Assembly: GCF_009363255.1 (NCBI RefSeq)
Contig: NZ_CP045321.1
Coordinates: 20,229-84,228 of the forward strand
Length of the DNA: 64,000 nt
From: Roseivivax sp. THAF197b
GTDB taxonomy: Bacteria; Pseudomonadota; Alphaproteobacteria; Rhodobacterales; Rhodobacteraceae
Direction: 5' to 3'
The notes under the pieces are model-generated. The model made no database searches. It was not told where the DNA came from and worked only from the letters and a program-made list of their open reading frames with translations. Position 1 is the first letter of the stretch. Each line of letters starts with the position of its first letter. The translations under genes were made by a program, and so were the position numbers. Positions 30,107 to 63,866 of the stretch are shown here, piece after piece.

Positions 30107-30129
30107 GATCGATCCTCCCGCGTTCAGCG

Positions 30130-32435: not shown

Positions 32436-32766
32436 GCGCTTGTCACGTCGGACGACGAGTGAAGTCGTCTCTACGGGCGTGATCGATGATTAAGCCCGTT
32501 TTGATTTGGGACGAGAGATGCGACCGTTCCCAGCCTGCGAGACCCTTTCCTAGCGCTTGTCTCCAATGGCTGTGTCGAAAATCGCGCCTTGCCCCGGTCT
32601 TTGCAGCTTGAGCCGAATTTGCCTCTCGCCGGAAGCGGCCATTCTTCGAAGGTCGGCAAGGTCCGCTCCCCGGACCTTGGCGCCGACATCAGCGAACGGC
32701 CGGTAATTGAGTGACGCAGCAAGATTAAATTACTGCGGTTCTATGACAATACTGTCTTTGTCGGCG
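32436..32766. other. 331-bp intergenic region, nothing convincing
   Basis: Frames are short and low in protein-like composition. It separates the lipoprotein (+) from the convergent secreted-protein gene (-). Confidence 0.4.
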
Positions 32767-33462
32767 CTAGTAATTCACCTGCTCGAACCCGTAGGTGCCT
32801 TCATAGTCACGCCAATCGACGAAGACGGATCGATGATAGATACTGGGGCAATTCTGGCCCCATCTTTCAAGACCCTCATGAACTGAGGGTAGGGCAGTTA
32901 CGGAAGACCTCTGCCAAGAGAAATCGCCTTGGGTTCCGTAAGTGCCGATGACCACGGTCGCGCTGCGATTGCAGTCGCCGTCACGACCGGATTCATGCTG
33001 CCGGGCATAGCGAACATCAAAGACTCGGATGGACCGCACGAAGTTGAACTCAGGTCCGCTGATATCGATGTCCGCGCGATCCTGAACGAGCCGGAGTGCC
33101 TGGTCGGTAGGAGCGAGATCGTCGACTGGCAAGGATTGGAGCGGTCGACGGCTGTCCGCTTGGTACAAGGCTTCAAAGATGCGGCCAGCGTTGTTTGATG
33201 GCCGATCGTTCTCATAGGAGGCGCCCATGGGACAGCGCCAGATTTGCAGTGGCGGTTCCACCGGCCAGGGCTTGATCCGCCTGATGAATTCGGCGCGGGC
33301 CCGGGCGCACGGGACAGATGCAGGCCAGCCGCCAGACAGGCATAAGAGGATCGCACAGTCGATCGGGTATGTCTGCGCGCGGGCGGGTGCCGGCAGCGCG
33401 AAACTTGTCACGGTCAAAGCGACGGCGGCCGGGGAGAGGAGCTTCTTGAGTAAATGGCGCAT
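32767..33462 (-). CDS. Secreted Cys-rich hypothetical protein, 231 aa
   Basis: Start at ATG 33462 (GGAGG upstream; the frame continues 12 codons further without a ribosome site). A signal peptide (LLSPAAVALTVTSFALPAPARAQ) precedes a mature protein beginning TYPIDCAILLCLSGGWPASVPCARARAE, with further conserved-looking WPVEPPLQIWRCPMG. Multiple cysteines suggest disulphides. I recall this N-terminal pattern from other roseobacter plasmid or phage proteins but know no function. The palindromic operator lies 38 bases upstream, so it is probably co-regulated with the transfer genes. Confidence 0.8.
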   Translation of the reverse strand: MRHLLKKLLSPAAVALTVTSFALPAPARAQTYPIDCAILLCLSGGWPASVPCARARAEFIRRIKPWPVEPPLQIWRCPMGASYENDRPSNNAGRIFEALYQADSRRPLQSLPVDDLAPTDQALRLVQDRADIDISGPEFNFVRSIRVFDVRYARQHESGRDGDCNRSATVVIGTYGTQGDFSWQRSSVTALPSVHEGLERWGQNCPSIYHRSVFVDWRDYEGTYGFEQVNY

Positions 33463-33500
33463 GCTGAGGATCCTCCGTGAGAGGAGTTCAGCATACATAC

Positions 33501-38476: not shown

Positions 38477-39553
38477 TTATACGAAGTTGGCTCTTGCAAG
38501 CGACCCGACTTGAGATGGATCGACAGCGACTGCTCCTGCACGGATCAAGGCCACCGTTTGGTCACCGACTAGCACGCGGGTATCTCCAGTGGCCAGGTCG
38601 ACCTCAGTCGTCAGATCTCCACCAAGTCCATCAACTTCGGAATGAACGACTAGCAACACGTCATCGCTTTCAAAATCCTCGATAACTGGGGGCGACGTCG
38701 GATCTACCCAGGTACCGGTAAAGAAGGAGTCTCCGCCCGGGCCACCAGTAGCTGTGTCACCACTGCCCAAAATAATCTGATCAAAGCCTTCTCCACCATT
38801 GATGGTGTCAGGGTCAATGATATCCGACCCGCGGAAGTTTTCGTCGTTTTCACCGTCTGTGTAGCCCCAAAGGATGTCGTTCCCAGAGCCTCCTTCTAGA
38901 GTATCCTCACCTTCATTGCCTCTGAGGAAATCGTCTCCGTCTCCACCATCCAGGATGTCGTTTCCACTGCCCGCAAAAAGGGAGTCGTTGTCTGAAGCCC
39001 CCTCTATCGTGTCATTCCCTACACCGCCAACGAGTTCATCATCGCCATCTCCGCCATTGAGTTCATCGTTCCCGTCGTCGCCAAAGAGTTGGTCGTCTCC
39101 CGAACCACCCTGAACCTGATCATCGCCATCTTCGCCTGCAACAAGGTCATCGCCGTTCCCACCGTCGAGTTGATCGTTCCCGTCAGCGCCGAACAACGAG
39201 TCTGCCCCATCACCACCAAAGATTTGATCATCGCCTGATGATCCATCCAAGACATCATGACCGGCGCCACCATCTATCGTGTCATCGCCTTCATCTCCAA
39301 CGACAGTGTCTTCACCGTCGGTCCCCTCGAGATCATCTGCATTCTCTGTGCCAAACAAGACATCCTCGATAGAGCCCGAACCACCGCCAGCAGCGTCACC
39401 TTCACCACCACCGCCAGCAGTGTCATCTCCATTCAGGGCCGGATCGCCTCCATCGTCGGAGGAGCGGTCGTCATCTGACGAGCTATCGTTATCTCCTCCC
39501 CCTAAGAAAGCGAGACCCGAAAAACCTACTAGAAGCAGCAACAGATATTCCAT
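38477..39553 (-). CDS. RTX-type calcium-binding protein
   Basis: 358 residues from ATG 39553 (GAGG upstream). The N-terminus is a short hydrophobic segment (MEYLLLLLVGFSGLAFLGGG), then an Asp/Ser/Gly-rich acidic linker (about 20-70). About 18 nonapeptide repeats of the GGxGxDxLx type follow (about 75-250), which form a Ca-binding parallel beta-roll. The C-terminal ~100 residues (PPVIEDFESDDVLLVV...GDTRVLVGDQTVALIRAG) resemble the post-roll cap of type I-secreted RTX proteins. A secretion system is not seen in the window. The N-terminal hydrophobic stretch suggests a membrane-anchored variant. Confidence 0.88.
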   Translation of the reverse strand: MEYLLLLLVGFSGLAFLGGGDNDSSSDDDRSSDDGGDPALNGDDTAGGGGEGDAAGGGSGSIEDVLFGTENADDLEGTDGEDTVVGDEGDDTIDGGAGHDVLDGSSGDDQIFGGDGADSLFGADGNDQLDGGNGDDLVAGEDGDDQVQGGSGDDQLFGDDGNDELNGGDGDDELVGGVGNDTIEGASDNDSLFAGSGNDILDGGDGDDFLRGNEGEDTLEGGSGNDILWGYTDGENDENFRGSDIIDPDTINGGEGFDQIILGSGDTATGGPGGDSFFTGTWVDPTSPPVIEDFESDDVLLVVHSEVDGLGGDLTTEVDLATGDTRVLVGDQTVALIRAGAVAVDPSQVGSLARANFV

Positions 39554-39833
39554 GTCAAACCTCAAAATTTCCCCGCCGCATTCCTGCCACACAACCGCCA
39601 CGAAAGCTCTAAAATTTTGACTTTTTTAACTATATCGTAGGAAATCGAAACAATGCTTACAAAGATGCCAAATTAGCCTCGATACTGCACGCGAAACTGA
39701 AAAGGTCAGTTTAATCCTGGTGTAGGTTTGCAGGGTAGTGTGCATATCGATTCGTTTTGGAAGAGCTATGTGAAGTGGTCCCGGAAATTCGGACGGTTGG
39801 CTAAGGTGTATCCTGAACCTTTTGGAGGGATAC

Positions 39834-45593: not shown

Positions 45594-48500
45594 TTAGAAT
45601 TTGACTTCGAGGTTCCCTGTCACGCTCGGTCTCATTGTGTCAATTAAATCGATGCCAAAGTTTAAGCTGCCGACAGCTCCTAGCCGTCGTTCATAGAAGG
45701 CGCCCATGGAGCTTCTACGTGCGTTGCTATCGACCTCCAAGTTGGCTTCGAAGCCCCAGGACGTCCCGTTGAGCGCGTCCGTGCGAACCAGTTCAACACC
45801 ACCTCGTATGCCACAAATCGAACCATGGTCAGCACCAAAAGTGGCATCACAGTATATGCCCGGGGCGAAGATTGTCGTTTGAGAGTATCGTTCCTCGCCT
45901 GAGTACGGATCTGTGTCACCAAACGCAAAATCCAATTCTCCCAGGAAGCGTATCCCGCTTTGATCCTCGAGACTCAGTGTCGAGCTTTCATTGTAACCTG
46001 GAATTGAAGCGGTCACGTTCGCATTTAATGCTGAGGCATAACGCAAATGTGCTCCGAAACGTGGCACCAGAGTAAAGCTTTCGTATTCCCGCTCGCCCGA
46101 AACGGACAATCCACCGAACAAAGCCCAGTAGTCGTAGCGTCCATCCGCGTCGATGTCCGTAGGCGCGGTATTCGAGAAAGTCAGGTCATAGTCATGACGG
46201 CCGATGGAGCCAGCAGCATAATAGTCCAAGATCAATCTGCTCTGGTTGAAAGCTTTTGCTCCGTAGAGTCCACCAAATCCTCCGATTCCTGTGATATTGC
46301 CATCTGCGCGACCGGAAAGCACACTCGTCTGGCTGCCGTAGAGGCCAAGGAAATAGCCCCGCAGATGCTCGGCGCCAACCAAGCGTTCGTATTGCCAAGT
46401 TGCGGAGAGTGCTGCCTGCATTCCCAAATCATCCGTGTCGCTCAGGCTGAAATCGCCACGAATGATCTGACGTTCGCCAGTGAAGCAATCATAGGTTTCA
46501 CCGCCAAAAGTTCCCTTCGTGTTGAGACCGGCGGCACCGGCCTCCGCAGAGCCTGCAACGTCGAAAGGCGTAATCACTCCGCAGGGCATGTTCTCCGCGA
46601 TCTCTTGTGCACTCCGCTGGATAACTCTGAACTCGACCCGGCGGTTCATCGCCATGCCTTCGGGGGTGCTGTTATCTGCGATCGGCAAGTTCTCACCATA
46701 TCCGACCGCCATGAGACGATCGACATTGACATTACGCTTTCGCAAGGCTTCGAGCACCGCGTTCACACGACGGTGGCTAAGATCGAGATTGTAGTCCTTA
46801 CCGCCGCGGAAGTCTGTGTGCCCGCCGATTTCGATGCGGGCGCTTTCACAAGACCCCATGATGCGTGCCAGACGATCCAGAAGGGCCGCGCTTTCATCCC
46901 TGATCACAGCGCTCGCCGTGTCGAACAAGATGGGCTGTCTGCGCACCTCATCATTCAACGCGGCTACACAGCGGTCCGGCAACAGGGCCGCAAGACGGTC
47001 GCGTGCACCACCAGCGATATCTTCGAATAACATCGACTGTTTGGTTGTGGTTTCCCGCAGGTCATCCTCAAGAATCTGCTCCAGCTCGTCCTTGATCTGG
47101 CCAACTAGATCGAGACCGATCATTGTCGCAACCTCATTTGAGGTCGAGCTTGCGTTTGCGCCTGCCGAGCTTTGGCCAAGTGCCTGTGCGACGTTTGTGA
47201 CGGACCCGCTCCGAATATCCTCATAGGTGAGCGCATATGTGAATGTGAGCGTCACGGACTCGCCCGGCGCCAAAGCCGGAACAACGTCCGCACCCACACC
47301 CAATTCATCCGAAAGATTAACCGGGCTCAGAACCACGTTGCCGGTGTTCGTAACGACCAGTGTGTAGGTGAGGATATCCCCGACATTCGGATTTGTAACT
47401 TGAGTGATGTCAACGCTGAGAGACGTTGAAAGCTCGGGCAAACTCAGAATCCGAAGGATCGTTGGATCGTTGTTGCTGTTCAGAGATCCGGAAATATCGC
47501 TGACAGCCGCCGCAGCGGTCGGTGTATCGCCCGACGCAATGGCCGTGTTATTCACAGATCCTGCATCTACGTCGGATTGAACGATCGTATAGGTCGCAGT
47601 CAGGGAGCTGTCTGTTGCACCTGGCGCCAATGGCCCGGCAATCGTACCAATGACTCCGCCGAGAAGCGGATCATCTACATCAATGGAACTCAGGGTCACG
47701 TTTCCTGTATTCGTCACATCGAATGTGTAGGTGATCACGTCACCGGCATCAGTCACACCAGATCCGTTCGTGTCGGCAACGGTCGCCTGCTTGACAAGGG
47801 CAATGCCAGGCGCATCCGGAAGCGGCGTCACAGTCGGGTCATCGGGGTTTCCGTCGCCATCGCTGTCACGATCCGATAGATCCGACGGATCGTCGGACAG
47901 GCTTGAGACAGCCGCGCCATCCGGATCCTCTGCAGTGACCCGGGCCGTGTTCGTCACACTACCATTGTCGATATCATCCTGTGTCAGCTCGTAACTCGCC
48001 CGGAAGGTATTCGCATCCGAAGCCCCGGGAGCAAGATCGATCGGGCCTCCAATGATTGGAACAAGCGGGTCGCTGACGGTCACGCCGGTGAGCGTCACAT
48101 TGCCCGTATTTGTCACGGTGAAGGTGTAGGTGATCAAGTCACCAACACTGGCAACACCATCACCACCATTATCCAGCGTTGCGGATTTTGAAAGCGTAAT
48201 GCTCGGGAGTTGATCGTAATCGAGCGCGACCGAGGCCGGGTTCGAGACGTTACCGTCATTGTCCGCGACCGTGTAGGTGATCGGCGTCGGGTCGGCGGTG
48301 AAGCCCGCCTCGGGGGTGAAGGTGATCTCGCCGGTGGTGGTATCCACCGACCAGGTGCCCTCGCCCGGGACGATCAGGTCGTCGCCCGCAGCCGCGGTGC
48401 CCGCGATCTGAACGGTGGCCGGATCGAGCGTGCCATCTGGGTCGCTGTCATTGCCCAGGACATCGGCCACGGCCGGTGTGTTGGTGGGCAGGCCCGTCAC

Positions 48501-48818
48501 GGTGTCATCGACGGCGGTCGGCGACTGCGCGTCGAAGTCGAGCGCGACCGAGGCCGGGTTCGAGACGTTACCGTCATTGTCCGCGACCGTGTAGGTGATC
48601 GGCGTCGGGTCGGCGGTGAAGCCCGCCTCGGGAGTGAAGGTGATCTCGCCGGTGGTGGTATCCACCGACCAGGTGCCCTCGCCCGGGACGATCAGGTCGT
48701 CGCCCGCAGCCGCGGTGCCCGCGATCTGAACGGTGGCCGGATCGAGCGTGCCATCTGGGTCGCTGTCATTGCCCAGGACATCGGCCACGGCCGGTGTGTT
48801 GGTGGGCAGGCCCGTCAC
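45594..48818 (-). CDS. C-terminal reading frame: DUF11 units, OmpA domain, beta-barrel
   Basis: 1,074 residues open from within the repeats to the stop. Residues 1-200 are the last two repeats. Residues ~205-565 are three DUF11-like units (ITYTFTVTNTGNVTLTGVTVSDPL, ITYTFDVTNTGNVTLSSIDVDDPL, LTYTLVVTNTGNVVLSPVNLSDEL). Residues ~625-735 are an OmpA C-like peptidoglycan-binding domain (ILFDTASAVIRDESAALLDRLARIM; IEIGGHTDFRGGKDYNLDLSHRRVNAVL; VGYGENLPIADNSTPEGMAMNRRVEF). Residues ~770-1074 alternate like outer-membrane strands (GYFLGLYGSQTSVLSG, YDYWALFGGLSVSGEREYESFTLVPRFGAHLRY) and finish NLEVKF, an aromatic C-terminal signature for outer-membrane insertion. Confidence 0.9.
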   Translation of the reverse strand: MTGLPTNTPAVADVLGNDSDPDGTLDPATVQIAGTAAAGDDLIVPGEGTWSVDTTTGEITFTPEAGFTADPTPITYTVADNDGNVSNPASVALDFDAQSPTAVDDTVTGLPTNTPAVADVLGNDSDPDGTLDPATVQIAGTAAAGDDLIVPGEGTWSVDTTTGEITFTPEAGFTADPTPITYTVADNDGNVSNPASVALDYDQLPSITLSKSATLDNGGDGVASVGDLITYTFTVTNTGNVTLTGVTVSDPLVPIIGGPIDLAPGASDANTFRASYELTQDDIDNGSVTNTARVTAEDPDGAAVSSLSDDPSDLSDRDSDGDGNPDDPTVTPLPDAPGIALVKQATVADTNGSGVTDAGDVITYTFDVTNTGNVTLSSIDVDDPLLGGVIGTIAGPLAPGATDSSLTATYTIVQSDVDAGSVNNTAIASGDTPTAAAAVSDISGSLNSNNDPTILRILSLPELSTSLSVDITQVTNPNVGDILTYTLVVTNTGNVVLSPVNLSDELGVGADVVPALAPGESVTLTFTYALTYEDIRSGSVTNVAQALGQSSAGANASSTSNEVATMIGLDLVGQIKDELEQILEDDLRETTTKQSMLFEDIAGGARDRLAALLPDRCVAALNDEVRRQPILFDTASAVIRDESAALLDRLARIMGSCESARIEIGGHTDFRGGKDYNLDLSHRRVNAVLEALRKRNVNVDRLMAVGYGENLPIADNSTPEGMAMNRRVEFRVIQRSAQEIAENMPCGVITPFDVAGSAEAGAAGLNTKGTFGGETYDCFTGERQIIRGDFSLSDTDDLGMQAALSATWQYERLVGAEHLRGYFLGLYGSQTSVLSGRADGNITGIGGFGGLYGAKAFNQSRLILDYYAAGSIGRHDYDLTFSNTAPTDIDADGRYDYWALFGGLSVSGEREYESFTLVPRFGAHLRYASALNANVTASIPGYNESSTLSLEDQSGIRFLGELDFAFGDTDPYSGEERYSQTTIFAPGIYCDATFGADHGSICGIRGGVELVRTDALNGTSWGFEANLEVDSNARRSSMGAFYERRLGAVGSLNFGIDLIDTMRPSVTGNLEVKF

Positions 48819-51800
48819 GGTGTCATCGACGGCGGTCGGCGACTGCGCGTCGAAGTCGAGCGCGACCGAGGCCGGGTTCGAGACGTTACCGTCATTGTCC
48901 GCGACCGTGTAGGTGATCGGCGTCGGGTCGGCGGTGAAGCCCGCCTCGGGGTGAAGGTGATCTCGCCGGTGGTGGTATCCACCGACCAGGTGCCCTCGCC
49001 CGGGACGATCAGGTCGTCGCCCGCAGCCGCGGTGCCCGCGATCTGAACGGTGGCCGGATCGAGCGTGCCATCTGGGTCGCTGTCATTGCCCAGGACATCG
49101 GCCACGGCCGGTGTGTTGGTGGGCAGGCCCGTCACAGTGTCATCGACGGCGGTCGGCGACTGCGCGTCGAAGTCGAGCGCGACCGAGGCCGGGTTCGAGA
49201 CGTTACCGTCATTGTCCGCGACCGTGTAGGTGATCGGCGTCGGGTCGGCGGTGAAGCCCGCCTCGGGAGTGAAGTTGATCTCGCCGGTGGTGGTATCCAC
49301 CGACCAGGTGCCCTCGCCCGGGACGATCAGGTCGTCGCCCGCAGCCGCGGTGCCCGCGATCTGAACGGTGGCCGGATCGAGCGTGCCATCTGGGTCGCTG
49401 TCATTGCCCAGGACATCGGCCACGGCCGGTGTGTTGGTGGGCAGGCCCGTCACGGTGTCATCGACGGCGGTCGGCGACTGCGCGTCGAAGTCGAGCGCGA
49501 CCGAGGCCGGGTTCGAGACGTTACCGTCATTGTCCGCGACCGTGTAGGTGATCGGCGTCGGGTCGGCGGTGAAGCCCGCCTCGGGAGTGAAGGTGATCTC
49601 GCCGGTGGTGGTATCCACCGACCAGGTGCCCTCGCCCGGGACGATCAGGTCGTCGCCCGCAGCCGCGGTGCCCGCGATCTGAACGGTGGCCGGATCGAGC
49701 GTGCCATCTGGGTCGCTGTCATTGCCCAGGACATCGGCCACGGCCGGTGTGTTGGTGGGCAGGCCCGTCACGGTGTCATCGACGGCGGTCGGCGACTGCG
49801 CGTCGAAGTCGAGCGCGACCGAGGCCGGGTTCGAGACGTTACCGTCATTGTCCGCGACCGTGTAGGTGATCGGCGTCGGGTCGGCGGTGAAGCCCGCCTC
49901 GGGGTGAAGGTGATCTCGCCGGTGGTGGTATCCACCGACCAGGTGCCCTCGCCCGGGACGATCAGGTCGTCGCCCGCAGCCGCGGTGCCCGCGATCTGAA
50001 CGGTGGCCGGATCGAGCGTGCCATCTGGGTCGCTGTCATTGCCCAGGACATCGGCCACGGCCGGTGTGTTGGTGGGCAGGCCCGTCACAGTGTCATCGAC
50101 GGCGGTCGGCGACTGCGCGTCGAAGTCGAGCGCGACCGAGGCCGGGTTCGAGACGTTACCGTCATTGTCCGCGACCGTGTAGGTGATCGGCGTCGGGTCG
50201 GCGGTGAAGCCCGCCTCGGGAGTGAAGGTGATCTCGCCGGTGGTGGTATCCACCGACCAGGTGCCCTCGCCCGGGACGATCAGGTCGTCGCCCGCAGCCG
50301 CGGTGCCCGCGATCTGAACGGTGGCCGGATCGAGCGTGCCATCTGGGTCGCTGTCATTGCCCAGGACATCGGCCACGGCCGGTGTGTTGGTGGGCAGGCC
50401 CGTCACGGTGTCATCGACGGCGGTCGGCGACTGCGCGTCGAAGTCGAGCGCGACCGAGGCCGGGTTCGAGACGTTACCGTCATTGTCCGCGACCGTGTAG
50501 GTGATCGGCGTCGGGTCGGCGGTGAAGCCCGCCTCGGGGTGAAGGTGATCTCGCCGGTGGTGGTATCCACCGACCAGGTGCCCTCGCCCGGGACGATCAG
50601 GTCGTCGCCCGCAGCCGCGGTGCCCGCGATCTGAACGGTGGCCGGATCGAGCGTGCCATCTGGGTCGCTGTCATTGCCCAGGACATCGGCCACGGCCGGT
50701 GTGTTGGTGGGCAGGCCCGTCACGGTGTCATCGACGGCGGTCGGCGACTGCGCGTCGAAGTCGAGCGCGACCGAGGCCGGGTTCGAGACGTTACCGTCAT
50801 TGTCCGCGACCGTGTAGGTGATCGGCGTCGGGTCGGCGGTGAAGCCCGCCTCGGGGTGAAGGTGATCTCGCCGGTGGTGGTATCCACCGACCAGGTGCCC
50901 TCGCCCGGGACGATCAGGTCGTCGCCCGCAGCCGCGGTGCCCGCGATCTGAACGGTGGCCGGATCGAGCGTGCCATCTGGGTCGCTGTCATTGCCCAGGA
51001 CATCGGCCACGGCCGGTGTGTTGGTGGGCAGGCCCGTCACGGTGTCATCGACGGCGGTCGGCGACTGCGCGTCGAAGTCGAGCGCGACCGAGGCCGGGTT
51101 CGAGACGTTACCGTCATTGTCCGCGACCGTGTAGGTGATCGGCGTCGGGTCGGCGGTGAAGCCCGCCTCGGGGTGAAGGTGATCTCGCCGGTGGTGGTAT
51201 CCACCGACCAGGTGCCCTCGCCCGGGACGATCAGGTCGTCGCCCGCAGCCGCGGTGCCCGCGATCTGAACGGTGGCCGGATCGAGCGTGCCATCTGGGTC
51301 GCTGTCATTGCCCAGGACATCGGCCACGGCCGGTGTGTTGGTGGGCAGGCCCGTCACGGTGTCATCGACGGCGGTCGGCGACTGCGCGTCGAAGTCGAGC
51401 GCGACCGAGGCCGGGTTCGAGACGTTACCGTCATTGTCCGCGACCGTGTAGGTGATCGGCGTCGGGTCGGCGGTGAAGCCCGCCTCGGGAGTGAAGGTGA
51501 TCTCGCCGGTGGTGGTATCCACCGACCAGGTGCCCTCGCCCGGGACGATCAGGTCGTCGCCCGCAGCCGCGGTGCCCGCGATCTGAACGGTGGCCGGATC
51601 GAGCGTGCCATCTGGGTCGCTGTCATTGCCCAGGACATCGGCCACGGCCGGTGTGTTGGTGGGCAGGCCCGTCACGGTGTCATCGACGGCGGTCGGCGAC
51701 TGCGCGTCGAAGTCGAGCGCGACCGAGGCCGGGTTCGAGACGTTACCGTCATTGTCCGCGACCGTGTAGGTGATCGGCGTCGGGTCGGCGGTGAAGCCCG

Positions 51801-54800
51801 CCTCGGGGGTGAAGGTGATCTCGCCGGTGGTGGTATCCACCGACCAGGTGCCCTCGCCCGGGACGATCAGGTCGTCGCCCGCAGCCGCGGTGCCCGCGAT
51901 CTGAACGGTGGCCGGATCGAGCGTGCCATCTGGGTCGCTGTCATTGCCCAGGACATCGGCCACGGCCGGTGTGTTGGTGGGCAGGCCCGTCACGGTGTCA
52001 TCGACGGCGGTCGGCGACTGCGCGTCGAAGTCGAGCGCGACCGAGGCCGGGTTCGAGACGTTACCGTCATTGTCCGCGACCGTGTAGGTGATCGGCGTCG
52101 GGTCGGCGGTGAAGCCCGCCTCGGGGTGAAGGTGATCTCGCCGGTGGTGGTATCCACCGACCAGGTGCCCTCGCCCGGGACGATCAGGTCGTCGCCCGCA
52201 GCCGCGGTGCCCGCGATCTGAACGGTGGCCGGATCGAGCGTGCCATCTGGGTCGCTGTCATTGCCCAGGACATCGGCCACGGCCGGTGTGTTGGTGGGCA
52301 GGCCCGTCACGGTGTCATCGACGGCGGTCGGCGACTGCGCGTCGAAGTCGAGCGCGACCGAGGCCGGGTTCGAGACGTTACCGTCATTGTCCGCGACCGT
52401 GTAGGTGATCGGCGTCGGGTCGGCGGTGAAGCCCGCCTCGGGAGTGAAGGTGATCTCGCCGGTGGTGGTATCCACCGACCAGGTGCCCTCGCCCGGGACG
52501 ATCAGGTCGTCGCCCGCAGCCGCGGTGCCCGCGATCTGAACGGTGGCCGGATCGAGCGTGCCATCTGGGTCGCTGTCATTGCCCAGGACATCGGCCACGG
52601 CCGGTGTGTTGGTGGGCAGGCCCGTCACGGTGTCATCGACGGCGGTCGGCGACTGCGCGTCGAAGTCGAGCGCGACCGAGGCCGGGTTCGAGACGTTACC
52701 GTCATTGTCCGCGACCGTGTAGGTGATCGGCGTCGGGTCGGCGGTGAAGCCCGCCTCGGGGTGAAGGTGATCTCGCCGGTGGTGGTATCCACCGACCAGG
52801 TGCCCTCGCCCGGGACGATCAGGTCGTCGCCCGCAGCCGCGGTGCCCGCGATCTGAACGGTGGCCGGATCGAGGCGTGCCATCTGGGTCGCTGTCATTGC
52901 CCAGGACATCGGCCACGGCCGGTGTGTTGGTGGGCAGGCCCGTCACGGTGTCATCGACGGCGGTCGGCGACTGCGCGTCGAAGTCGAGCGCGACCGAGGC
53001 CGGGTTCGAGACGTTACCGTCATTGTCCGCGACCGTGTAGGTGATCGGCGTCGGGTCGGCGGTGAAGCCCGCCTCGGGGTGAAGGTGATCTCGCCGGTGG
53101 TGGTATCCACCGACCAGGTGCCCTCGCCCGGGACGATCAGGTCGTCGCCCGCAGCCGCGGTGCCCGCGATCTGAACGGTGGCCGGATCGAGCGTGCCATC
53201 TGGGTCGCTGTCATTGCCCAGGACATCGGCCACGGCCGGTGTGTTGGTGGGCAGGCCCGTCACGGTGTCATCGACGGCGGTCGGCGACTGCGCGTCGAAG
53301 TCGAGCGCGACCGAGGCCGGGTTCGAGACGTTACCGTCATTGTCCGCGACCGTGTAGGTGATCGGCGTCGGGTCGGCGGTGAAGCCCGCCTCGGGGTGAA
53401 GGTGATCTCGCCGGTGGTGGTATCCACCGACCAGGTGCCCTCGCCCGGGACGATCAGGTCGTCGCCCGCAGCCGCGGTGCCCGCGATCTGAACGGTGGCC
53501 GGATCGAGCGTGCCATCTGGGTCGCTGTCATTGCCCAGGACATCGGCCACGGCCGGTGTGTTGGTGGGCAGGCCCGTCACGGTGTCATCGACGGCGGTCG
53601 GCGACTGCGCGTCGAAGTCGAGCGCGACCGAGGCCGGGTTCGAGACGTTACCGTCATTGTCCGCGACCGTGTAGGTGATCGGCGTCGGGTCGGCGGTGAA
53701 GCCCGCCTCGGGAGTGAAGGTGATCTCGCCGGTGGTGGTATCCACCGACCAGGTGCCCTCGCCCGGGACGATCAGGTCGTCGCCCGCAGCCGCGGTGCCC
53801 GCGATCTGAACGGTGGCCGGATCGAGCGTGCCATCTGGGTCGCTGTCATTGCCCAGGACATCGGCCACGGCCGGTGTGTTGGTGGGCAGGCCCGTCACAG
53901 TGTCATCGACGGCGGTCGGCGACTGCGCGTCGAAGTCGAGCGCGACCGAGGCCGGGTTCGAGACGTTACCGTCATTGTCCGCGACCGTGTAGGTGATCGG
54001 CGTCGGGTCGGCGGTGAAGCCCGCCTCGGGAGTGAAGGTGATCTCGCCGGTGGTGGTATCCACCGACCAGGTGCCCTCGCCCGGGACGATCAGGTCGTCG
54101 CCCGCAGCCGCGGTGCCCGCGATCTGAACGGTGGCCGGATCGAGCGTGCCATCTGGGTCGCTGTCATTGCCCAGGACATCGGCCACGGCCGGTGTGTTGG
54201 TGGGCAGGCCCGTCACGGTGTCATCGACGGCGGTCGGCGACTGCGCGTCGAAGTCGAGCGCGACCGAGGCCGGGTTCGAGACGTTACCGTCATTGTCCGC
54301 GACCGTGTAGGTGATCGGCGTCGGGTCGGCGGTGAAGCCCGCCTCGGGAGTGAAGGTGATCTCGCCGGTGGTGGTATCCACCGACCAGGTGCCCTCGCCC
54401 GGGACGATCAGGTCGTCGCCCGCAGCCGCGGTGCCCGCGATCTGAACGGTGGCCGGATCGAGCGTGCCATCTGGGTCGCTGTCATTGCCCAGGACATCGG
54501 CCACGGCCGGTGTGTTGGTGGGCAGGCCCGTCACAGTGTCATCGACGGCGGTCGGCGACTGCGCGTCGAAGTCGAGCGCGACCGAGGCCGGGTTCGAGAC
54601 GTTACCGTCATTGTCCGCGACCGTGTAGGTGATCGGCGTCGGGTCGGCGGTGAAGCCCGCCTCGGGAGTGAAGGTGATCTCGCCGGTGGTGGTATCCACC
54701 GACCAGGTGCCCTCGCCCGGGACGATCAGGTCGTCGCCCGCAGCCGCGGTGCCCGCGATCTGAACGGTGGCCGGATCGAGCGTGCCATCTGGGTCGCTGT

Positions 54801-57800
54801 CATTGCCCAGGACATCGGCCACGGCCGGTGTGTTGGTGGGCAGGCCCGTCACGGTGTCATCGACGGCGGTCGGCGACTGCGCGTCGAAGTCGAGCGCGAC
54901 CGAGGCCGGGTTCGAGACGTTACCGTCATTGTCCGCGACCGTGTAGGTGATCGGCGTCGGGTCGGCGGTGAAGCCCGCCTCGGGAGTGAAGGTGATCTCG
55001 CCGGTGGTGGTATCCACCGACCAGGTGCCCTCGCCCGGGACGATCAGGTCGTCGCCCGCAGCCGCGGTGCCCGCGATCTGAACGGTGGCCGGATCGAGCG
55101 TGCCATCTGGGTCGCTGTCATTGCCCAGGACATCGGCCACGGCCGGTGTGTTGGTGGGCAGGCCCGTCACGGTGTCATCGACGGCGGTCGGCGACTGCGC
55201 GTCGAAGTCGAGCGCGACCGAGGCCGGGTTCGAGACGTTACCGTCATTGTCCGCGACCGTGTAGGTGATCGGCGTCGGGTCGGCGGTGAAGCCCGCCTCG
55301 GGAGTGAAGGTGATCTCGCCGGTGGTGGTATCCACCGACCAGGTGCCCTCGCCCGGGACGATCAGGTCGTCGCCCGCAGCCGCGGTGCCCGCGATCTGAA
55401 CGGTGGCCGGATCGAGCGTGCCATCTGGGTCGCTGTCATTGCCCAGGACATCGGCCACGGCCGGTGTGTTGGTGGGCAGGCCCGTCACGGTGTCATCGAC
55501 GGCGGTCGGCGACTGCGCGTCGAAGTCGAGCGCGACCGAGGCCGGGTTCGAGACGTTACCGTCATTGTCCGCGACCGTGTAGGTGATCGGCGTCGGGTCG
55601 GCGGTGAAGCCCGCCTCGGGGTGAAGGTGATCTCGCCGGTGGTGGTATCCACCGACCAGGTGCCCTCGCCCGGGACGATCAGGTCGTCGCCCGCAGCCGC
55701 GGTGCCCGCGATCTGAACGGTGGCCGGATCGAGCGTGCCATCTGGGTCGCTGTCATTGCCCAGGACATCGGCCACGGCCGGTGTGTTGGTGGGCAGGCCC
55801 GTCACGGTGTCATCGACGGCGGTCGGCGACTGCGCGTCGAAGTCGAGCGCGACCGAGGCCGGGTTCGAGACGTTACCGTCATTGTCCGCGACCGTGTAGG
55901 TGATCGGCGTCGGGTCGGCGGTGAAGCCCGCCTCGGGAGTGAAGGTGATCTCGCCGGTGGTGGTATCCACCGACCAGGTGCCCTCGCCCGGGACGATCAG
56001 GTCGTCGCCCGCAGCCGCGGTGCCCGCGATCTGAACGGTGGCCGGATCGAGCGTGCCATCTGGGTCGCTGTCATTGCCCAGGACATCGGCCACGGCCGGT
56101 GTGTTGGTGGGCAGGCCCGTCACGGTGTCATCGACGGCGGTCGGCGACTGCGCGTCGAAGTCGAGCGCGACCGAGGCCGGGTTCGAGACGTTACCGTCAT
56201 TGTCCGCGACCGTGTAGGTGATCGGCGTCGGGTCGGCGGTGAAGCCCGCCTCGGGAGTGAAGGTGATCTCGCCGGTGGTGGTATCCACCGACCAGGTGCC
56301 CTCGCCCGGGACGATCAGGTCGTCGCCCGCAGCCGCGGTGCCCGCGATCTGAACGGTGGCCGGATCGAGCGTGCCATCTGGGTCGCTGTCATTGCCCAGG
56401 ACATCGGCCACGGCCGGTGTGTTGGTGGGCAGGCCCGTCACGGTGTCATCGACGGCGGTCGGCGACTGCGCGTCGAAGTCGAGCGCGACCGAGGCCGGGT
56501 TCGAGACGTTACCGTCATTGTCCGCGACCGTGTAGGTGATCGGCGTCGGGTCGGCGGTGAAGCCCGCCTCGGGAGTGAAGGTGATCTCGCCGGTGGTGGT
56601 ATCCACCGACCAGGTGCCCTCGCCCGGGACGATCAGGTCGTCGCCCGCAGCCGCGGTGCCCGCGATCTGAACGGTGGCCGGATCGAGCGTGCCATCTGGG
56701 TCGCTGTCATTGCCCAGGACATCGGCCACGGCCGGTGTGTTGGTGGGCAGGCCCGTCACAGTGTCATCGACGGCGGTCGGCGACTGCGCGTCGAAGTCGA
56801 GCGCGACCGAGGCCGGGTTCGAGACGTTACCGTCATTGTCCGCGACCGTGTAGGTGATCGGCGTCGGGTCGGCGGTGAAGCCCGCCTCGGGAGTGAAGGT
56901 GATCTCGCCGGTGGTGGTATCCACCGACCAGGTGCCCTCGCCCGGGACGATCAGGTCGTCGCCCGCAGCCGCGGTGCCCGCGATCTGAACGGTGGCCGGA
57001 TCGAGCGTGCCATCTGGGTCGCTGTCATTGCCCAGGACATCGGCCACGGCCGGTGTGTTGGTGGGCAGGCCCGTCACGGTGTCATCGACGGCGGTCGGCG
57101 ACTGCGCGTCGAAGTCGAGCGCGACCGAGGCCGGGTTCGAGACGTTACCGTCATTGTCCGCGACCGTGTAGGTGATCGGCGTCGGGTCGGCGGTGAAGCC
57201 CGCCTCGGGAGTGAAGGTGATCTCGCCGGTGGTGGTATCCACCGACCAGGTGCCCTCGCCCGGGACGATCAGGTCGTCGCCCGCAGCCGCGGTGCCCGCG
57301 ATCTGAACGGTGGCCGGATCGAGCGTGCCATCTGGGTCGCTGTCATTGCCCAGGACATCGGCCACGGCCGGTGTGTTGGTGGGCAGGCCCGTCACGGTGT
57401 CATCGACGGCGGTCGGCGACTGCGCGTCGAAGTCGAGCGCGACCGAGGCCGGGTTCGAGACGTTACCGTCATTGTCCGCGACCGTGTAGGTGATCGGCGT
57501 CGGGTCGGCGGTGAAGCCCGCCTCGGGGTGAAGGTGATCTCGCCGGTGGTGGTATCCACCGACCAGGTGCCCTCGCCCGGGACGATCAGGTCGTCGCCCG
57601 CAGCCGCGGTGCCCGCGATCTGAACGGTGGCCGGATCGAGCGTGCCATCTGGGTCGCTGTCATTGCCCAGGACATCGGCCACGGCCGGTGTGTTGGTGGG
57701 CAGGCCCGTCACAGTGTCATCGACGGCGGTCGGCGACTGCGCGTCGAAGTCGAGCGCGACCGAGGCCGGGTTCGAGACGTTACCGTCATTGTCCGCGACC

Positions 57801-60800
57801 GTGTAGGTGATCGGCGTCGGGTCGGCGGTGAAGCCCGCCTCGGGAGTGAAGGTGATCTCGCCGGTGGTGGTATCCACCGACCAGGTGCCCTCGCCCGGGA
57901 CGATCAGGTCGTCGCCCGCAGCCGCGGTGCCCGCGATCTGAACGGTGGCCGGATCGAGCGTGCCATCTGGGTCGCTGTCATTGCCCAGGACATCGGCCAC
58001 GGCCGGTGTGTTGGTGGGCAGGCCCGTCACGGTGTCATCGACGGCGGTCGGCGACTGCGCGTCGAAGTCGAGCGCGACCGAGGCCGGGTTCGAGACGTTA
58101 CCGTCATTGTCCGCGACCGTGTAGGTGATCGGCGTCGGGTCGGCGGTGAAGCCCGCCTCGGGAGTGAAGGTGATCTCGCCGGTGGTGGTATCCACCGACC
58201 AGGTGCCCTCGCCCGGGACGATCAGGTCGTCGCCCGCAGCCGCGGTGCCCGCGATCTGAACGGTGGCCGGATCGAGCGTGCCATCTGGGTCGCTGTCATT
58301 GCCCAGGACATCGGCCACGGCCGGTGTGTTGGTGGGCAGGCCCGTCACGGTGTCATCGACGGCGGTCGGCGACTGCGCGTCGAAGTCGAGCGCGACCGAG
58401 GCCGGGTTCGAGACGTTACCGTCATTGTCCGCGACCGTGTAGGTGATCGGCGTCGGGTCGGCGGTGAAGCCCGCCTCGGGAGTGAAGGTGATCTCGCCGG
58501 TGGTGGTATCCACCGACCAGGTGCCCTCGCCCGGGACGATCAGGTCGTCGCCCGCAGCCGCGGTGCCCGCGATCTGAACGGTGGCCGGATCGAGCGTGCC
58601 ATCTGGGTCGCTGTCATTGCCCAGGACATCGGCCACGGCCGGTGTGTTGGTGGGCAGGCCCGTCACGGTGTCATCGACGGCGGTCGGCGACTGCGCGTCG
58701 AAGTCGAGCGCGACCGAGGCCGGGTTCGAGACGTTACCGTCATTGTCCGCGACCGTGTAGGTGATCGGCGTCGGGTCGGCGGTGAAGCCCGCCTCGGGAG
58801 TGAAGGTGATCTCGCCGGTGGTGGTATCCACCGACCAGGTGCCCTCGCCCGGGACGATCAGGTCGTCGCCCGCAGCCGCGGTGCCCGCGATCTGAACGGT
58901 GGCCGGATCGAGCGTGCCATCTGGGTCGCTGTCATTGCCCAGGACATCGGCCACGGCCGGTGTGTTGGTGGGCAGGCCCGTCACGGTGTCATCGACGGCG
59001 GTCGGCGACTGCGCGTCGAAGTCGAGCGCGACCGAGGCCGGGTTCGAGACGTTACCGTCATTGTCCGCGACCGTGTAGGTGATCGGCGTCGGGTCGGCGG
59101 TGAAGCCCGCCTCGGGGGTGAAGGTGATCTCGCCGGTGGTGGTATCCACCGACCAGGTGCCCTCGCCCGGGACGATCAGGTCGTCGCCCGCAGCCGCGGT
59201 GCCCGCGATCTGAACGGTGGCCGGATCGAGCGTGCCATCTGGGTCGCTGTCATTGCCCAGGACATCGGCCACGGCCGGTGTGTTGGTGGGCAGGCCCGTC
59301 ACGGTGTCATCGACGGCGGTCGGCGACTGCGCGTCGAAGTCGAGCGCGACCGAGGCCGGGTTCGAGACGTTACCGTCATTGTCCGCGACCGTGTAGGTGA
59401 TCGGCGTCGGGTCGGCGGTGAAGCCCGCCTCGGGAGTGAAGGTGATCTCGCCGGTGGTGGTATCCACCGACCAGGTGCCCTCGCCCGGGACGATCAGGTC
59501 GTCGCCCGCAGCCGCGGTGCCCGCGATCTGAACGGTGGCCGGATCGAGCGTGCCATCTGGGTCGCTGTCATTGCCCAGGACATCGGCCACGGCCGGTGTG
59601 TTGGTGGGCAGGCCCGTCACAGTGTCATCGACGGCGGTCGGCGACTGCGCGTCGAAGTCGAGCGCGACCGAGGCCGGGTTCGAGACGTTACCGTCATTGT
59701 CCGCGACCGTGTAGGTGATCGGCGTCGGGTCGGCGGTGAAGCCCGCCTCGGGGGTGAAGGTGATCTCGCCGGTGGTGGTATCCACCGACCAGGTGCCCTC
59801 GCCCGGGACGATCAGGTCGTCGCCCGCAGCCGCGGTGCCCGCGATCTGAACGGTGGCCGGATCGAGCGTGCCATCTGGGTCGCTGTCATTGCCCAGGACA
59901 TCGGCCACGGCCGGTGTGTTGGTGGGCAGGCCCGTCACGGTGTCATCGACGGCGGTCGGCGACTGCGCGTCGAAGTCGAGCGCGACCGAGGCCGGGTTCG
60001 AGACGTTACCGTCATTGTCCGCGACCGTGTAGGTGATCGGCGTCGGGTCGGCGGTGAAGCCCGCCTCGGGGTGAAGGTGATCTCGCCGGTGGTGGTATCC
60101 ACCGACCAGGTGCCCTCGCCCGGGACGATCAGGTCGTCGCCCGCAGCCGCGGTGCCCGCGATCTGAACGGTGGCCGGATCGAGCGTGCCATCTGGGTCGC
60201 TGTCATTGCCCAGGACATCGGCCACGGCCGGTGTGTTGGTGGGCAGGCCCGTCACGGTGTCATCGACGGCGGTCGGCGACTGCGCGTCGAAGTCGAGCGC
60301 GACCGAGGCCGGGTTCGAGACGTTACCGTCATTGTCCGCGACCGTGTAGGTGATCGGCGTCGGGTCGGCGGTGAAGCCCGCCTCGGGGGTGAAGGTGATC
60401 TCGCCGGTGGTGGTATCCACCGACCAGGTGCCCTCGCCCGGGACGATCAGGTCGTCGCCCGCAGCCGCGGTGCCCGCGATCTGAACGGTGGCCGGATCGA
60501 GCGTGCCATCTGGGTCGCTGTCATTGCCCAGGACATCGGCCACGGCCGGTGTGTTGGTGGGCAGGCCCGTCACAGTGTCATCGACGGCGGTCGGGAGAAA
60601 ATCGTAACTGATCGAGATGTCTGCCGCTGCGGACGGTGCTCCATTCGTATCCGAAACGATGTACGGTGCAACGGTTGGATCGGATGCAAACCCAGCCTCG
60701 GGAGTAAAGGTGACGTCACCTGTGATAGGATTGACAACCCAGACACCTTCATTTGGAACCGAGAGCGTCTTTCCATCCGCAGCAAGTATCGAGCCCGCAG

Positions 60801-61593
60801 GCGCTCCTGTTCCTGTAAGTACTACGGTTGTTGGATCGATTGGAAAATCATTTTCCACGTCGTTGGCTAGAACAGAGACAGTGACTATCGCATCAGCTGT
60901 GTTGTTGTTAGAAATATCATCTACTGCGGTAGGGGCGCTGATTGTTACAGGTACAGGAGAGGAGAAATCAAAGAATGCGCGAACATTTTGAGTCCCCTCA
61001 ACATCGTCATAGTAAATGGTAAATGCATCCGTCGGAGTTGAGGGACTAAAGCTTGCTTGGCCGTCCGTCGGGTTGTTCACGCCGTCTGGACCGGTGACAA
61101 ATGTACCTACTCCGCCAGCAGAACTCAGCCGCGCAACTTGATTGGCATAAGCTGGAGGTGACGCAAAGCTGTTAACTTCCATCCCATTCAAGTTGGACCA
61201 CGTGCCTGGAACGCTTGCCGAAAAAGCATCTCTGGACGCGCTGCCGTCGAAGTCGTCCATGTCCAGAAATCCGATTTGGCGAATAAAAAAGCCATTTGTT
61301 CGGAACTGCATCGCAACCGTTTGACCAGCAGCACAACCAACTCCACTGCCAGCGTTCACAGTGACTCTACCAGATGCATCTGAGCTGAAGCACGCCGCAG
61401 GAGATGGAGTGCCTGTAATTGTTATAGTATTGCCGTTCCCATCCGACATGATGACGGTGTCATCATTGGGGACCGAGCTCACCGAGAAGGACTGAGCCAA
61501 TGCTACGGTCACGAATGAAATCGTGAACAAGACGCTTTGGAAGAGTAGCCCCAGTGCCACCTTCATAAGCTTCCTCAAACCTGTAGAGATCAT
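45594..61593 (-). CDS. Giant repeat surface protein with OmpA and beta-barrel C-terminus (interrupted by frameshifts as given)
   Basis: A single locus reads from ATG 61593 (GAGGCGG upstream) to the stop at 45594. Order: signal peptide; unique ~200-residue head; one divergent Ig-like unit; 39 tandem 106-residue repeats; three DUF11-like units; OmpA-type domain; beta-barrel-like end. The sequence shown has twelve 1-base losses and one 1-base gain within the repeats. The 16,000 bases plus 12 minus 1 give 16,011, exactly 5,337 codons, so the corrected product would be 5,336 residues. The repeats resemble Ig-like/cadherin-like bacterial adhesin modules (AVDDTVTGLPTNTPAVADVLGND..., LIVPGEGTWSVDTTTGEITFTPEAGF). 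Probable role: outer-membrane-anchored, peptidoglycan-attached long adhesin or stalk. No CDS of ordinary length in the repeats should be read as a separate protein. Confidence 0.8.
48221..60594 (-). repeat. 39 tandem 318-bp repeats
   Basis: The unit is 318 bp (106 codons). Spacing of the GTG of VTGLPTN shows 39 units, the last about 17 bp short; 39 x 318 - 11 - 17 = 12,374 bp, exactly the observed span. Units are nearly identical. The common variants are CACGG/CACAG and GGGAG/GGGGG, plus one AAGTTG at 49273. G-run shortened to GGGG at 48948, 49901, 50536, 50853, 51170, 52123, 52758, 53076, 53393, 55618, 57525 and 60068; extra G near 52873. The resulting reading frames start at 48818, 49771, 50406, 50723, 51040, 51993, 52946, 53263, 55488, 57395 and 59938. 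Confidence 0.95.
59935..61593 (-). CDS. N-terminal reading frame of the giant surface protein
   Basis: 552 residues as read. The signal peptide ends near VALAQ (about 34). A beta-rich head (about 35-230) has two Cys pairs-worth of residues (PSPAACFSS, SGVGCAAG) and resembles exported lectin-like or anchor domains. A divergent Ig-like unit follows (PTAVDDISNNNTADAIVTVSVLANDVEND...EGVWVVNPITGDVTFTPEAGF). The first two 106-residue repeats come next, and a 1-base loss at 60068-60071 sends translation into a short out-of-frame tail (FTPRRASPPTRRR...). Confidence 0.85.
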   Translation of the reverse strand: MISTGLRKLMKVALGLLFQSVLFTISFVTVALAQSFSVSSVPNDDTVIMSDGNGNTITITGTPSPAACFSSDASGRVTVNAGSGVGCAAGQTVAMQFRTNGFFIRQIGFLDMDDFDGSASRDAFSASVPGTWSNLNGMEVNSFASPPAYANQVARLSSAGGVGTFVTGPDGVNNPTDGQASFSPSTPTDAFTIYYDDVEGTQNVRAFFDFSSPVPVTISAPTAVDDISNNNTADAIVTVSVLANDVENDFPIDPTTVVLTGTGAPAGSILAADGKTLSVPNEGVWVVNPITGDVTFTPEAGFASDPTVAPYIVSDTNGAPSAAADISISYDFLPTAVDDTVTGLPTNTPAVADVLGNDSDPDGTLDPATVQIAGTAAAGDDLIVPGEGTWSVDTTTGEITFTPEAGFTADPTPITYTVADNDGNVSNPASVALDFDAQSPTAVDDTVTGLPTNTPAVADVLGNDSDPDGTLDPATVQIAGTAAAGDDLIVPGEGTWSVDTTTGEITFTPRRASPPTRRRSPTRSRTMTVTSRTRPRSRSTSTRSRRPPSMTP

Positions 61594-61881: not shown

Positions 61882-62924
61882 ATGATGCGAGCGGCGACGA
61901 GAGAGCAAAAGGCAGGCAATAACATCGCCCTGCCCGCCCATGTCGCCGGGTCGGGCACGCTGGGTCGCCTTTTCGACACCGCGCGATTACGCCCAGGCTG
62001 CGGCTTCCGAGAACGCGATCAAGGCCTTAACCAAGGACTGGGCTCACTTCGCACGCTGGTGCCGCATGAAAGGCGCGGAGCCACTGCCCCCATCCCCAGA
62101 GATGACCGGACACTATCTCGCGGACCTGGCGGCCGGGTCGGGCCCCTCCCCTGCCCTCGCTGTCAGCACGATTGACCGCCGCCTCTCGGGTCTCGCCTGG
62201 ACCTACGCGCAGCGGGGCCTCACTCTAGATCGCAAGGACCGCCACATCGCGACTGTCCTGGCTGGAATAATCCAGAGACACGCGCGCCCGCCAGTCCAGA
62301 AGGCCGTAATTCTCGCCGAATACATCCTCGCGATGGTCGCCACCCTTCCTTTCGTTCTGCGCGGGCTGCGAGATCGCGCGTTCCTTTTGATTGGCTACGC
62401 TGGCGGCCTTCGTCGCACAGAAATCGTGACCCTCGATGTGGGTAAGGACGACACGCCAGACAGTGGCGGATGGGTCGAGATCCTGAAGAAGGGTGCTCTT
62501 CTCACCCTCAATGCAAATAGCGGCCGGCGCGAAGTCGAGATCGGCCGCGGCTCCAAGGAACAGGGCTGCCCGGTCCACGCCCTCCAGCGATGGCTGCACT
62601 TCGCCAGGATCGTTTTCTGTCCGGTCTTCGTTGCCACCTCGCGGGACGGCAACAACGCACTCGAAACGCGGCTCAACGATAAACACGTCGCGTTTGATCA
62701 AACGCACCGTTCTGGACGCCGACATCCGGGCCGACCTACCGCAGGCGAACCGTTTGGCGCTGTTTTCCGGTCACTCGCTGCGCGCCAGTCTCGCGAGTTC
62801 AGCCGAGGTCGACGAGCGCTGTGTCCGGAAACAGCTTGGCCACACTTCGGCCAAGATGACACGTCGCTACCAGCGCCTCCGAGATCGGTTCCGGCGGAAC
62901 CTGACCAAGTCCGCCCGCCTATAG
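61882..62924 (+). pseudogene. Tyrosine site-specific recombinase, two frameshifts
   Basis: Three consecutive frames give one integrase. (1) NNIALPAHVAGSGTLGRLFDTA, (2) DYAQAAASENAIKALTKDWAHFARWC...LLIGYAGGLRRTEIVTLD with the first catalytic Arg, (3) RLIKRTVLDADIRADLPQANRLALFSGHSLRASLA...LGHTSAKMTRRYQR with His-x-x-Arg, His and Tyr. Frame changes lie near 61985 (ACACCGCGCGATTAC) and 62690 (GTCGCGTTTGATC). Each fits loss of a CG dinucleotide from a CGCG run. In the form shown the catalytic domain is split, so the gene should be inactive. Homologues of this type are widespread integrases in Rhodobacteraceae. Confidence 0.85.
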
Positions 62925-62984
62925 CCTTCAGTCCGCAAGCGGTCGTTTATTAGTGATACATAAAATTGCAAACGGCCAGATTTC

Positions 62985-63866
62985 ATGCCCCTGATAGGCT
63001 ATGCCCGCGTTTCCACAGAGGATCAGACCCCCCTGCCCCAGTCCGAGGCGCTGCAATCGGCGGGCTGTGCCGAGATCTTTGAAGAGCACGCCTCAGGCGG
63101 CAATCGCGCGCGTCCTGTGCTCACGCGGGTGCTCGAACGCGTCCAGAGCGGCGATACGCTGGTCGTCGTGCGGATCGACCGGCTTGCGCGGTCTCTGTCG
63201 CACTTACTGGAGGTGATCGAGCGTCTGGAGGCCAAGGGAGCTTTCTTCCGCTCGCTGCAGGACCCCATCGACACCGCCTCCCCTCAAGGAAAATTCACAT
63301 TGCAGGTTCTGGGCGCCGCGGCGGAGTTCGAACGCGCGCTGATACGTGAGCGCACGAAGGCCGGGCTTGTCTCTGCGCGCGCCAAGGGCCGCGTTGGTGG
63401 CAATCCTGGGCTTCGCACCAAAGACCCCGCCGCGCTGCGCAAGGTGTGGCTGGCACGACAGGACGGCTACATGGAGCGCCTGAACGAAACCGCGCAGGAT
63501 TGGGTGCCCCACGTGCGACGCCTGCGGCCGGATATGGCCTGGGAAGATGTTTTGCGAATCATTAATGGCCCCCTGCCCCACGACCGGCACTGGACCCAAA
63601 GCCGCCTACTCCGTGCTGTGAAAGCCTATGTCCGCGACGGGTTTCTACCAGATGCTGTGCTTGGCCGCGCCGGACGCCGCGAAACCGATGACCGCCTGCC
63701 GGCTATCGTGGCTGCCATCAAAGGCTCGGACCCCGAAATAACACTGCAGGCGATCTGCGACCGGCTGGAATCGATGCGTGAGCGCACCCCTCGAGGGCGC
63801 ACCAGCTGGCAGCCGTCTTCGGTCAAAATGCTGCTTGAGCGTGCGGAAAAGTTGGGGCTCCTCTGA
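62985..63866 (+). CDS. Serine recombinase/resolvase
   Basis: 293 residues. The N-terminal catalytic domain is LIGYARVSTEDQTPLPQ with the nucleophile Ser10. The Arg-containing VVVRIDRLARSLSHLLEVIERL and LQVLGAAAEFERALIRERTKAGLVSARAKGR fit resolvase/invertase enzymes. The C-terminal ~150 residues exceed a simple HTH and include two WxxH/S-type helical units (VWLARQDGYMERLN; RTSWQPSSVKMLLERAEKL). It likely resolves plasmid multimers or cointegrates. A candidate site with inverted CGGTCGTTT/AAACGGCC arms lies just upstream (62940-62975). Confidence 0.92.
   Translation: MPLIGYARVSTEDQTPLPQSEALQSAGCAEIFEEHASGGNRARPVLTRVLERVQSGDTLVVVRIDRLARSLSHLLEVIERLEAKGAFFRSLQDPIDTASPQGKFTLQVLGAAAEFERALIRERTKAGLVSARAKGRVGGNPGLRTKDPAALRKVWLARQDGYMERLNETAQDWVPHVRRLRPDMAWEDVLRIINGPLPHDRHWTQSRLLRAVKAYVRDGFLPDAVLGRAGRRETDDRLPAIVAAIKGSDPEITLQAICDRLESMRERTPRGRTSWQPSSVKMLLERAEKLGLL

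Follow-up and report, generated by a model that had tools for sequence, protein, structure and literature searches.

The 64,000-nucleotide stretch considered here (the window; positions 20,229 to 84,228 of contig NZ_CP045321.1) belongs to the marine bacterium Roseivivax sp. THAF197b, whose 4.24 Mb genome is assembled in 6 contigs. On the minus strand, from 61593 to 45594, it holds one plasmid-borne, gene-like stretch with a tandem array, which an earlier model-based reading of the letters (the original prediction) had described as a giant surface protein. Tandem Repeats Finder (TRF) reported one array (48220–60594; period 318, 38.9 copies, 99% matches, score 24559), and direct counting gave 39 units. 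The 39 near-identical units of the original prediction were thus recovered, but only 28 of them measure the predicted 318 bp, the other 11 being 317 bp long. Among the 318-bp units, 16 show no deviation from the consensus and 26 differ at two positions or fewer; the remaining two are the unit at 52943, which carries offset indels, and the last unit, whose 3′ end has diverged. All eleven 317-bp units equal the consensus except for one absent base. Variable sites within the unit were found at positions 183 (T/C) and 315 (C/T), together with a lone A at 176. Each unit corresponds to 106 residues, and one window unit contained 18 acidic residues, no Lys or Arg and no cysteine. The homologous array of the related plasmid pTHAF40_b (2,432 residues) is likewise devoid of K, R, H, C and M. 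As the stalk lacks lysine and arginine, the ordinary tryptic surface proteomics suggested with the original prediction would be blind to it, and Asp-N or Glu-C would be needed. Elsewhere in the genome only two weak matches to the unit were detected, both on contig C1 (E 4.5e-6 and 7.6e-4).

The array is embedded in an ordered series of domains, all on the minus strand. The open reading frame (ORF) begins with a signal-peptide-like N-terminus of 33 aa (61495..61593; cleavage site placed by eye), in agreement with the signal peptide foreseen originally, and its start is conserved in pTHAF40_b and in a second plasmid, pTHAF30_a. It is followed by an N-terminal domain of 187 aa (60934..61494), a candidate adhesive tip whose resemblance to PAD (polymer-adhesin) domains is weak and which is present in 3 of 394 family genomes, its own included. 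CshA_NR2 was not among the matches listed for this domain by VIA-align, an uninformative absence. A first, divergent CshA-type unit of 113 aa (60595..60933; PF19076 30.1 bits, cut-off 27) leads into the 39 units (48220..60594), which TRF, the unit census and profile matches delimit and which contain 11 net frame breaks; an array piece of 848 aa scored 266.3 bits with PF19076 (cut-off 27) and 286.4 bits with TIGR04225 (cut-off 60). The next segment (47124..48218) comprises three domains of DUF7507/DUF11 type. The DUF11 repeats originally named are therefore present, but their best match is DUF7507 (PF24346, 228.1 bits over 3 stretches), with DUF11 second at 40.5 bits. A conserved helix and candidate pore helix (46971..47123; helix 6–47 of the structural model) precedes the predicted OmpA-like peptidoglycan-binding domain (46641..46928), and the expectation of an OmpA domain was borne out by the domain search (PF00691 62.2 bits, cut-off 27.2). 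This domain also aligned by Foldseek with 5wtp (E 3.5e-10), and the Asp of its HTD motif and an Arg 15 residues further on align with OprF 5u1h; we take this Asp/Arg pair to be the peptidoglycan-binding residues of OmpA domains. The series closes with a predicted C-terminal β-barrel (45597..46583) ending in Phe.

An AlphaFold2 model of the 509 residues from helix to barrel predicted the barrel with a mean pLDDT of 81.6, so that structure prediction does place a barrel after the OmpA domain, as had been proposed. The model shows 16 strands (DSSP, broken strands taken as one), a predicted rather than an experimental count, and the protein C-terminus, reading LEVKF, lies at the end of the predicted barrel. 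Structurally, the predicted barrel is matched by solved autotransporter and TpsB barrels; the alignments with NalP, EspP, Hbp and AaaA begin within the model helix (residues 13, 7, 1 and 5, respectively). This agreement of solved autotransporters from the helix onwards suggests that the helix may lie in the pore, with the OmpA domain in the periplasm and the stalk outside. With the autotransporter profile PF03797, 6 of 9 aligned members of the barrel family matched at E 0.01 (P0003 with 29.3 bits, cut-off 26). Searched as a profile against solved sequences, the barrel yielded two matches, both at chance level.

The barrel family revealed how the OmpA domain relates to its surroundings. After removal of matches with 60 bits or less, shorter than 260 aa or with an identical barrel sequence, 55 distinct barrels entered the tree. 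In 39 of these a recognisable helix adjoins either the barrel or its OmpA cassette, and the gap counts cover these 39, the linker not being found in the other 16. Where OmpA is present (18 of 39), helix and barrel are separated by 130–143 residues; where it is absent (21 of 39), the gap shrinks to 3–6 residues in 19 cases and to 17 and 32 in the other two. One member, P0015, was assigned to the OmpA-less group by hand, as Pfam shows no OmpA and the gap is 6 residues. Three changes are required by the OmpA label on the barrel tree, a number as low as which was reached in 0 of 500 shuffles, and a single clade was rejected by the approximately unbiased test (p-AU 0.0003). OmpA is a removable cassette of about 130 residues between helix and barrel, gained or lost at least three times. 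Gap pattern and tree together indicate that a peptidoglycan-binding module was inserted or removed at the joint of helix and first strand, a behaviour that the original prediction had not registered. In classical autotransporters the helix spans the pore (PMC9289746; this and the other papers cited by PMC number are represented here by part of their text). By analogy, the joint of helix and barrel would face the periplasm, and this would explain how a peptidoglycan domain can sit in the chain after an external stalk and before a barrel in the membrane.

The helix–OmpA–barrel segment was searched by tblastn against 72,556 plasmid records. Two of them, pTHAF40_b and pTHAF30_a, contained a single place covering at least 80% of the query; both belong to Roseivivax strains obtained from a particle of microplastic in an aquarium. 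Counted from the conserved ATG, pTHAF40_b encodes an unbroken ORF of 3,640 residues with 23 units and pTHAF30_a an unbroken ORF of 1,308 residues with 1 unit. The single ORF of pTHAF40_b argues that the locus does not consist of several unrelated genes, which the original prediction had named as an outcome that would refute it. Both orthologues share the domain order, are annotated as 'OmpA family protein' and are 84–88% identical to the window protein in the C-terminus and 98% in the N-terminal part (P0001/P0002). The annotated starts in NZ_CP045362.1 and NZ_CP045390.1 lie downstream of the signal peptide, while an in-frame ATG with signal peptide is found upstream in both. Over stretches of 11,798, 5,040 and 4,488 bp the two plasmids are 99.99%, 99.94% and 100% identical. 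Mismatches total 4 among some 21,300 aligned bases, and beyond these the plasmids differ by 22 units and an insertion. Judging from these sequences, stalk length appears to change easily (39, 23 and 1 units), a variation that had gone unrecognised in the original prediction. The 1-unit protein P0002, taken from an assembly source, has the same sequence as THAF30 and may thus not be independent of it. Two records of one Boseongicola-type protein, P0020 and P0021, differ in the number of 101-residue units that precede the helix (1 and 4, respectively), which is either a second case of length difference in the barrel family or an assembly collapse.

Divergence between the window gene and that of pTHAF40_b is uneven. 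Differences amount to 3 in 318 positions for the unit consensus, 12 in 999 for the N-terminal part, 21 in 1,083 for the DUF7507 part, 28 in 552 for helix plus OmpA and 133 in 987 for the barrel. The corresponding dN/dS values are 0.46 for the N-terminus, 0.32 for DUF7507, 0.15 for helix plus OmpA and 0.21 for the barrel, and dS reaches 0.40 in the barrel as compared with 0.04 in the DUF7507 part and 0.02 in the N-terminus. Outside the gene, identity is 84.8% for the transfer genes and 91.9% for the recombinase region upstream. As far as sequence comparison can tell, the gene is a mosaic, perhaps formed through recombination. What further searches recovered depended on the query: a scan of genome contigs with the single barrel protein found no relative and the same scan with a barrel alignment 11 loci; a single-protein search of 61 related genomes returned the own copy alone, whereas the profile detected barrels in 25 of the 394 genomes of the family, the own one included.

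In the window itself the frame is interrupted. As sequenced, the minus strand between 45594 and 61593 holds 12 ORFs and 11 frame breaks, with ORF lengths from the N-terminal side of 552, 848, 636, 742, 106, 318, 318, 106, 106, 212, 318 and 1074 aa; every one of the 11 junctions is a four-base GTGA overlap in which TGA is overlapped by GTG. The protein of 5,336 residues announced in the original prediction has no such ORF in this DNA; its length is arithmetic on an assumed continuous frame (16,000 + 11 = 16,011 = 3 × 5,337). That reading also missed that all net frame breaks fall at one spot of the unit, with one base lost each time. This spot reads CTCCC in 22 units, a run of five C (C5) in 5 and a run of four (C4) in 12. 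C4 occurs in all eleven 317-bp units and, as the twelfth case, in the unit at 52943, where the unit census implies a twelfth one-base loss cancelled by a one-base gain within the same unit. In pTHAF40_b the spot is C5 in 23 of 23 units and the ORF is open. Changes of run length in near-identical repeats are a typical long-read consensus error. Since the pTHAF40_b gene is unbroken and all its units carry C5, we favour the explanation that the breaks are most likely, on this sequence evidence, long-read consensus errors in a run of C, located in repeats beyond the reach of short-read polishing. No paper on homopolymer errors in surface-protein repeats was found in the open-licence literature.

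Some observations speak against this explanation. C4 is one base short of both C5 and CTCCC and could come from either, so that the losses need not all have struck C5 runs; the unique coding part offers just one other C5 run for comparison (46662, minus strand), which is intact; and the picture would be identical if homogenisation had spread a C4 allele among the units. The breaks might accordingly be real, the window copy being in decay, with a C4 allele spread by gene conversion and only the N-terminal fragment of 552 residues made. Such a history would account for C4 in 12 of 39 units and for eleven 317-bp units that otherwise equal the consensus, as homogenisation would give; 11 breaks are still left after the one offset pair, and the one-base gain in the unit at 52943 lies outside any long run, where a run-length error is less expected. 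It is at odds, however, with the unique coding parts (3,621 bases), which contain no frame break, align with pTHAF40_b with 0 gaps and show dN/dS below 1, and with the C5 kept throughout the pTHAF40_b array. We therefore consider decay rather unlikely and retain consensus errors as the explanation.

Taken together, we propose that the locus probably encodes a plasmid-borne fibrillar adhesin of the periscope type, whose length is set by the number of stalk units and which is both exported and kept in place by a C-terminal barrel of autotransporter-like kind. The Sec pathway would bring the protein to the periplasm, where the C-terminal barrel would insert in the outer membrane. The stalk would exit through or beside the barrel and stay tied by the long helix in the pore, while OmpA, placed between helix and first barrel strand, would remain periplasmic and grip peptidoglycan. 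The 39 acidic CshA-type units would form a rod holding the N-terminal domain away from the cell, and recombination among the nearly identical units would shift their number. The fibre of the original prediction, fixed to the cell wall as well as to the outer membrane, gains support from the predicted barrel after OmpA and from the intact relative, whereas its topology is one that we infer from these features. Several findings weigh against our proposal. CymA (4v3g) and TodX (6z37), which are not autotransporters, also align starting within the helix, and the alignment ranges give end points only, so that a helix in the pore is not proved by them. The window barrel has no Pfam match at E 0.01, and its 16 modelled strands compare with 12 in type Va translocators (PMC9289746). 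The 1-unit pTHAF30_a, finally, may be an assembly collapse.

The stalk could instead be exported by another machine, such as a type II or unknown system, with barrel and OmpA serving as anchors only. Type II secretion genes indeed adjoin the gene in 8 of 12 OmpA-less relative loci (two of them on one contig), but they stand beside 0 of 5 OmpA-carrying loci, the window included (one of the five, L017, spans only 5 kb). In the host genome no gspD scored over the cut-off, with one partial match below it, and the helix–barrel unit resembles autotransporters; separate export thus appears improbable to us. The eight type II loci (L012, L014, L020, L021 and L023–L026; query source L013) also contain a prepilin peptidase and a TPR gene, and seven of them have an FG-GAP-type protein on the opposite side. 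A giant adhesin equipped with a type II system of its own would merit separate study. Other routes were dropped: the type I (RTX/LapA) route, as HemolysinCabind was not matched in the C-terminal piece; the sortase route, as the C-terminus is the predicted barrel; and the POTRA/patatin route, as neither occurred among Pfam matches at E up to 1 in the three pieces scanned. At window positions 38477–39601 the same contig encodes an RTX-type protein in which PF00353 (139 bits) matches 7 stretches of calcium-binding repeats.

An assembly artefact behind the repeat number is very improbable. Identical 318-bp arrays are hard to assemble, and short reads cannot resolve such repeats (PMC9704523), but the variant sites are distributed over the array without any simple order and the other plasmid record independently carries a 23-unit array; the exact count of 39 is provisional. 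Least credible of all is a set of shorter proteins from separate genes re-initiated by coupling at each GTGA overlap, for although at each of the 11 breaks the terminal TGA overlaps a GTG of the original frame, this overlap follows incidentally from the sequence of the unit, no ribosome-binding site precedes it at the two breaks read, a signal peptide is seen in the first piece only and the close relatives are one ORF.

The surroundings of the proposed adhesin include transfer and recombination genes. VirB-type conjugation genes occupy window positions 20000–33500 (best-listed plasmid matches 85–89% identical, Rhodobacterales), among them a VirB4-type protein at 24278–26668. Just upstream of the adhesin (61940–63866), two overlapping ORFs in different frames give partial phage-integrase matches and are possibly one broken tyrosine recombinase; a serine resolvase lies there as well. 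A more far-reaching version of the proposal, which we put forward as doubtful though conceivable, would see here a type V form of its own, with a C-terminal barrel of about 16 strands, a pore helix, an OmpA cassette inserted or removed at least three times at one joint, a variable stalk and a PAD-like tip; as the plasmid carries a VirB-type transfer system, such a protein may aid cell–cell aggregation in conjugation, as a Gram-negative counterpart of the enterococcal adhesin PrgB. If the topology is true, an autotransporter with a C-terminal barrel can also bear a periplasmic peptidoglycan anchor, seated at the only joint at which the chain of a classical autotransporter is exposed to the periplasm. 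The barrel family offers natural pairs with and without OmpA for asking what the anchor does, and with versions of 1, 23 and 39 units at hand it can be tested directly in marine bacteria how stalk length influences adhesion or conjugation.

Most features of the predicted protein are known singly from the portions of literature consulted, namely from periscope proteins, CshA-like proteins with an OmpA anchor and type Ve proteins with a periplasmic domain. Periscope proteins are single-chain surface proteins with highly identical tandem domains of variable unit number, and CshA_repeat (PF19076) is named among their folds (PMC9704523). The locus resembles them in its repeats, which exceed 50 residues and are of very high identity (106 residues, 39 copies, 99%), and in the unit number of 23 versus 1 on near-identical plasmids, the 1-unit record possibly being an assembly collapse. 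A single chain is seen in the relatives only, the window frame being broken, and surface attachment is predicted from signal peptide, OmpA and barrel. The Gram-negative example in the legend of Figure 1 of that paper is an inverse autotransporter, the order of which is the reverse of the present one with its C-terminal barrel and OmpA insert. CshA of Streptococcus gordonii shares CshA-type stalk units and an N-terminal candidate PAD domain, but it has 17 repeat domains and is sortase-anchored (LPxTG) to a Gram-positive surface (PMC10952558), whereas the C-terminus here is a predicted barrel. The domain order had seemed unfamiliar in the original prediction. For Proteobacteria, however, the combination of a CshA-type adhesive domain, a DUF11 stalk and an OmpA anchor has been surveyed (PMC10952558); the terms 'beta-barrel', 'autotransporter' and 'outer membrane' are absent from the main text of that paper, and the combination with a barrel was not found described in the open-licence literature.

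Among the autotransporters, YeeJ and intimin (type Ve) share an Ig-like stalk, an outer membrane barrel and a periplasmic peptidoglycan-binding domain, and YeeJ occurs in two length variants, comparable to the variation in unit number observed here; they differ in carrying LysM in place of OmpA and in a barrel that is N-terminal to the passenger, while ours is C-terminal (PMC5595812, PMC6555100). According to PMC6555100, no other type of autotransporter has the extra periplasmic domain of type Ve. Type Va shares the N-terminal passenger, C-terminal barrel and pore helix, and in our model the barrel does follow a helix linker, with OmpA in between; its barrel has 12 strands and its passenger is mostly β-helical (PMC9289746). 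Type Vd likewise places a periplasmic domain between passenger and 16-stranded barrel, but uses POTRA (and patatin-like) domains, neither of which is seen here (PMC9289746). In the open-licence literature we found no papers on the THAF plasmids and no description of a C-terminal autotransporter-like barrel with an OmpA insert after the helix and a highly identical, variable stalk. What appears to be new, as far as sequence and model can indicate, is thus the union of a periscope stalk with a C-terminal barrel resembling that of autotransporters and with a peptidoglycan-binding insert that may be present or absent.

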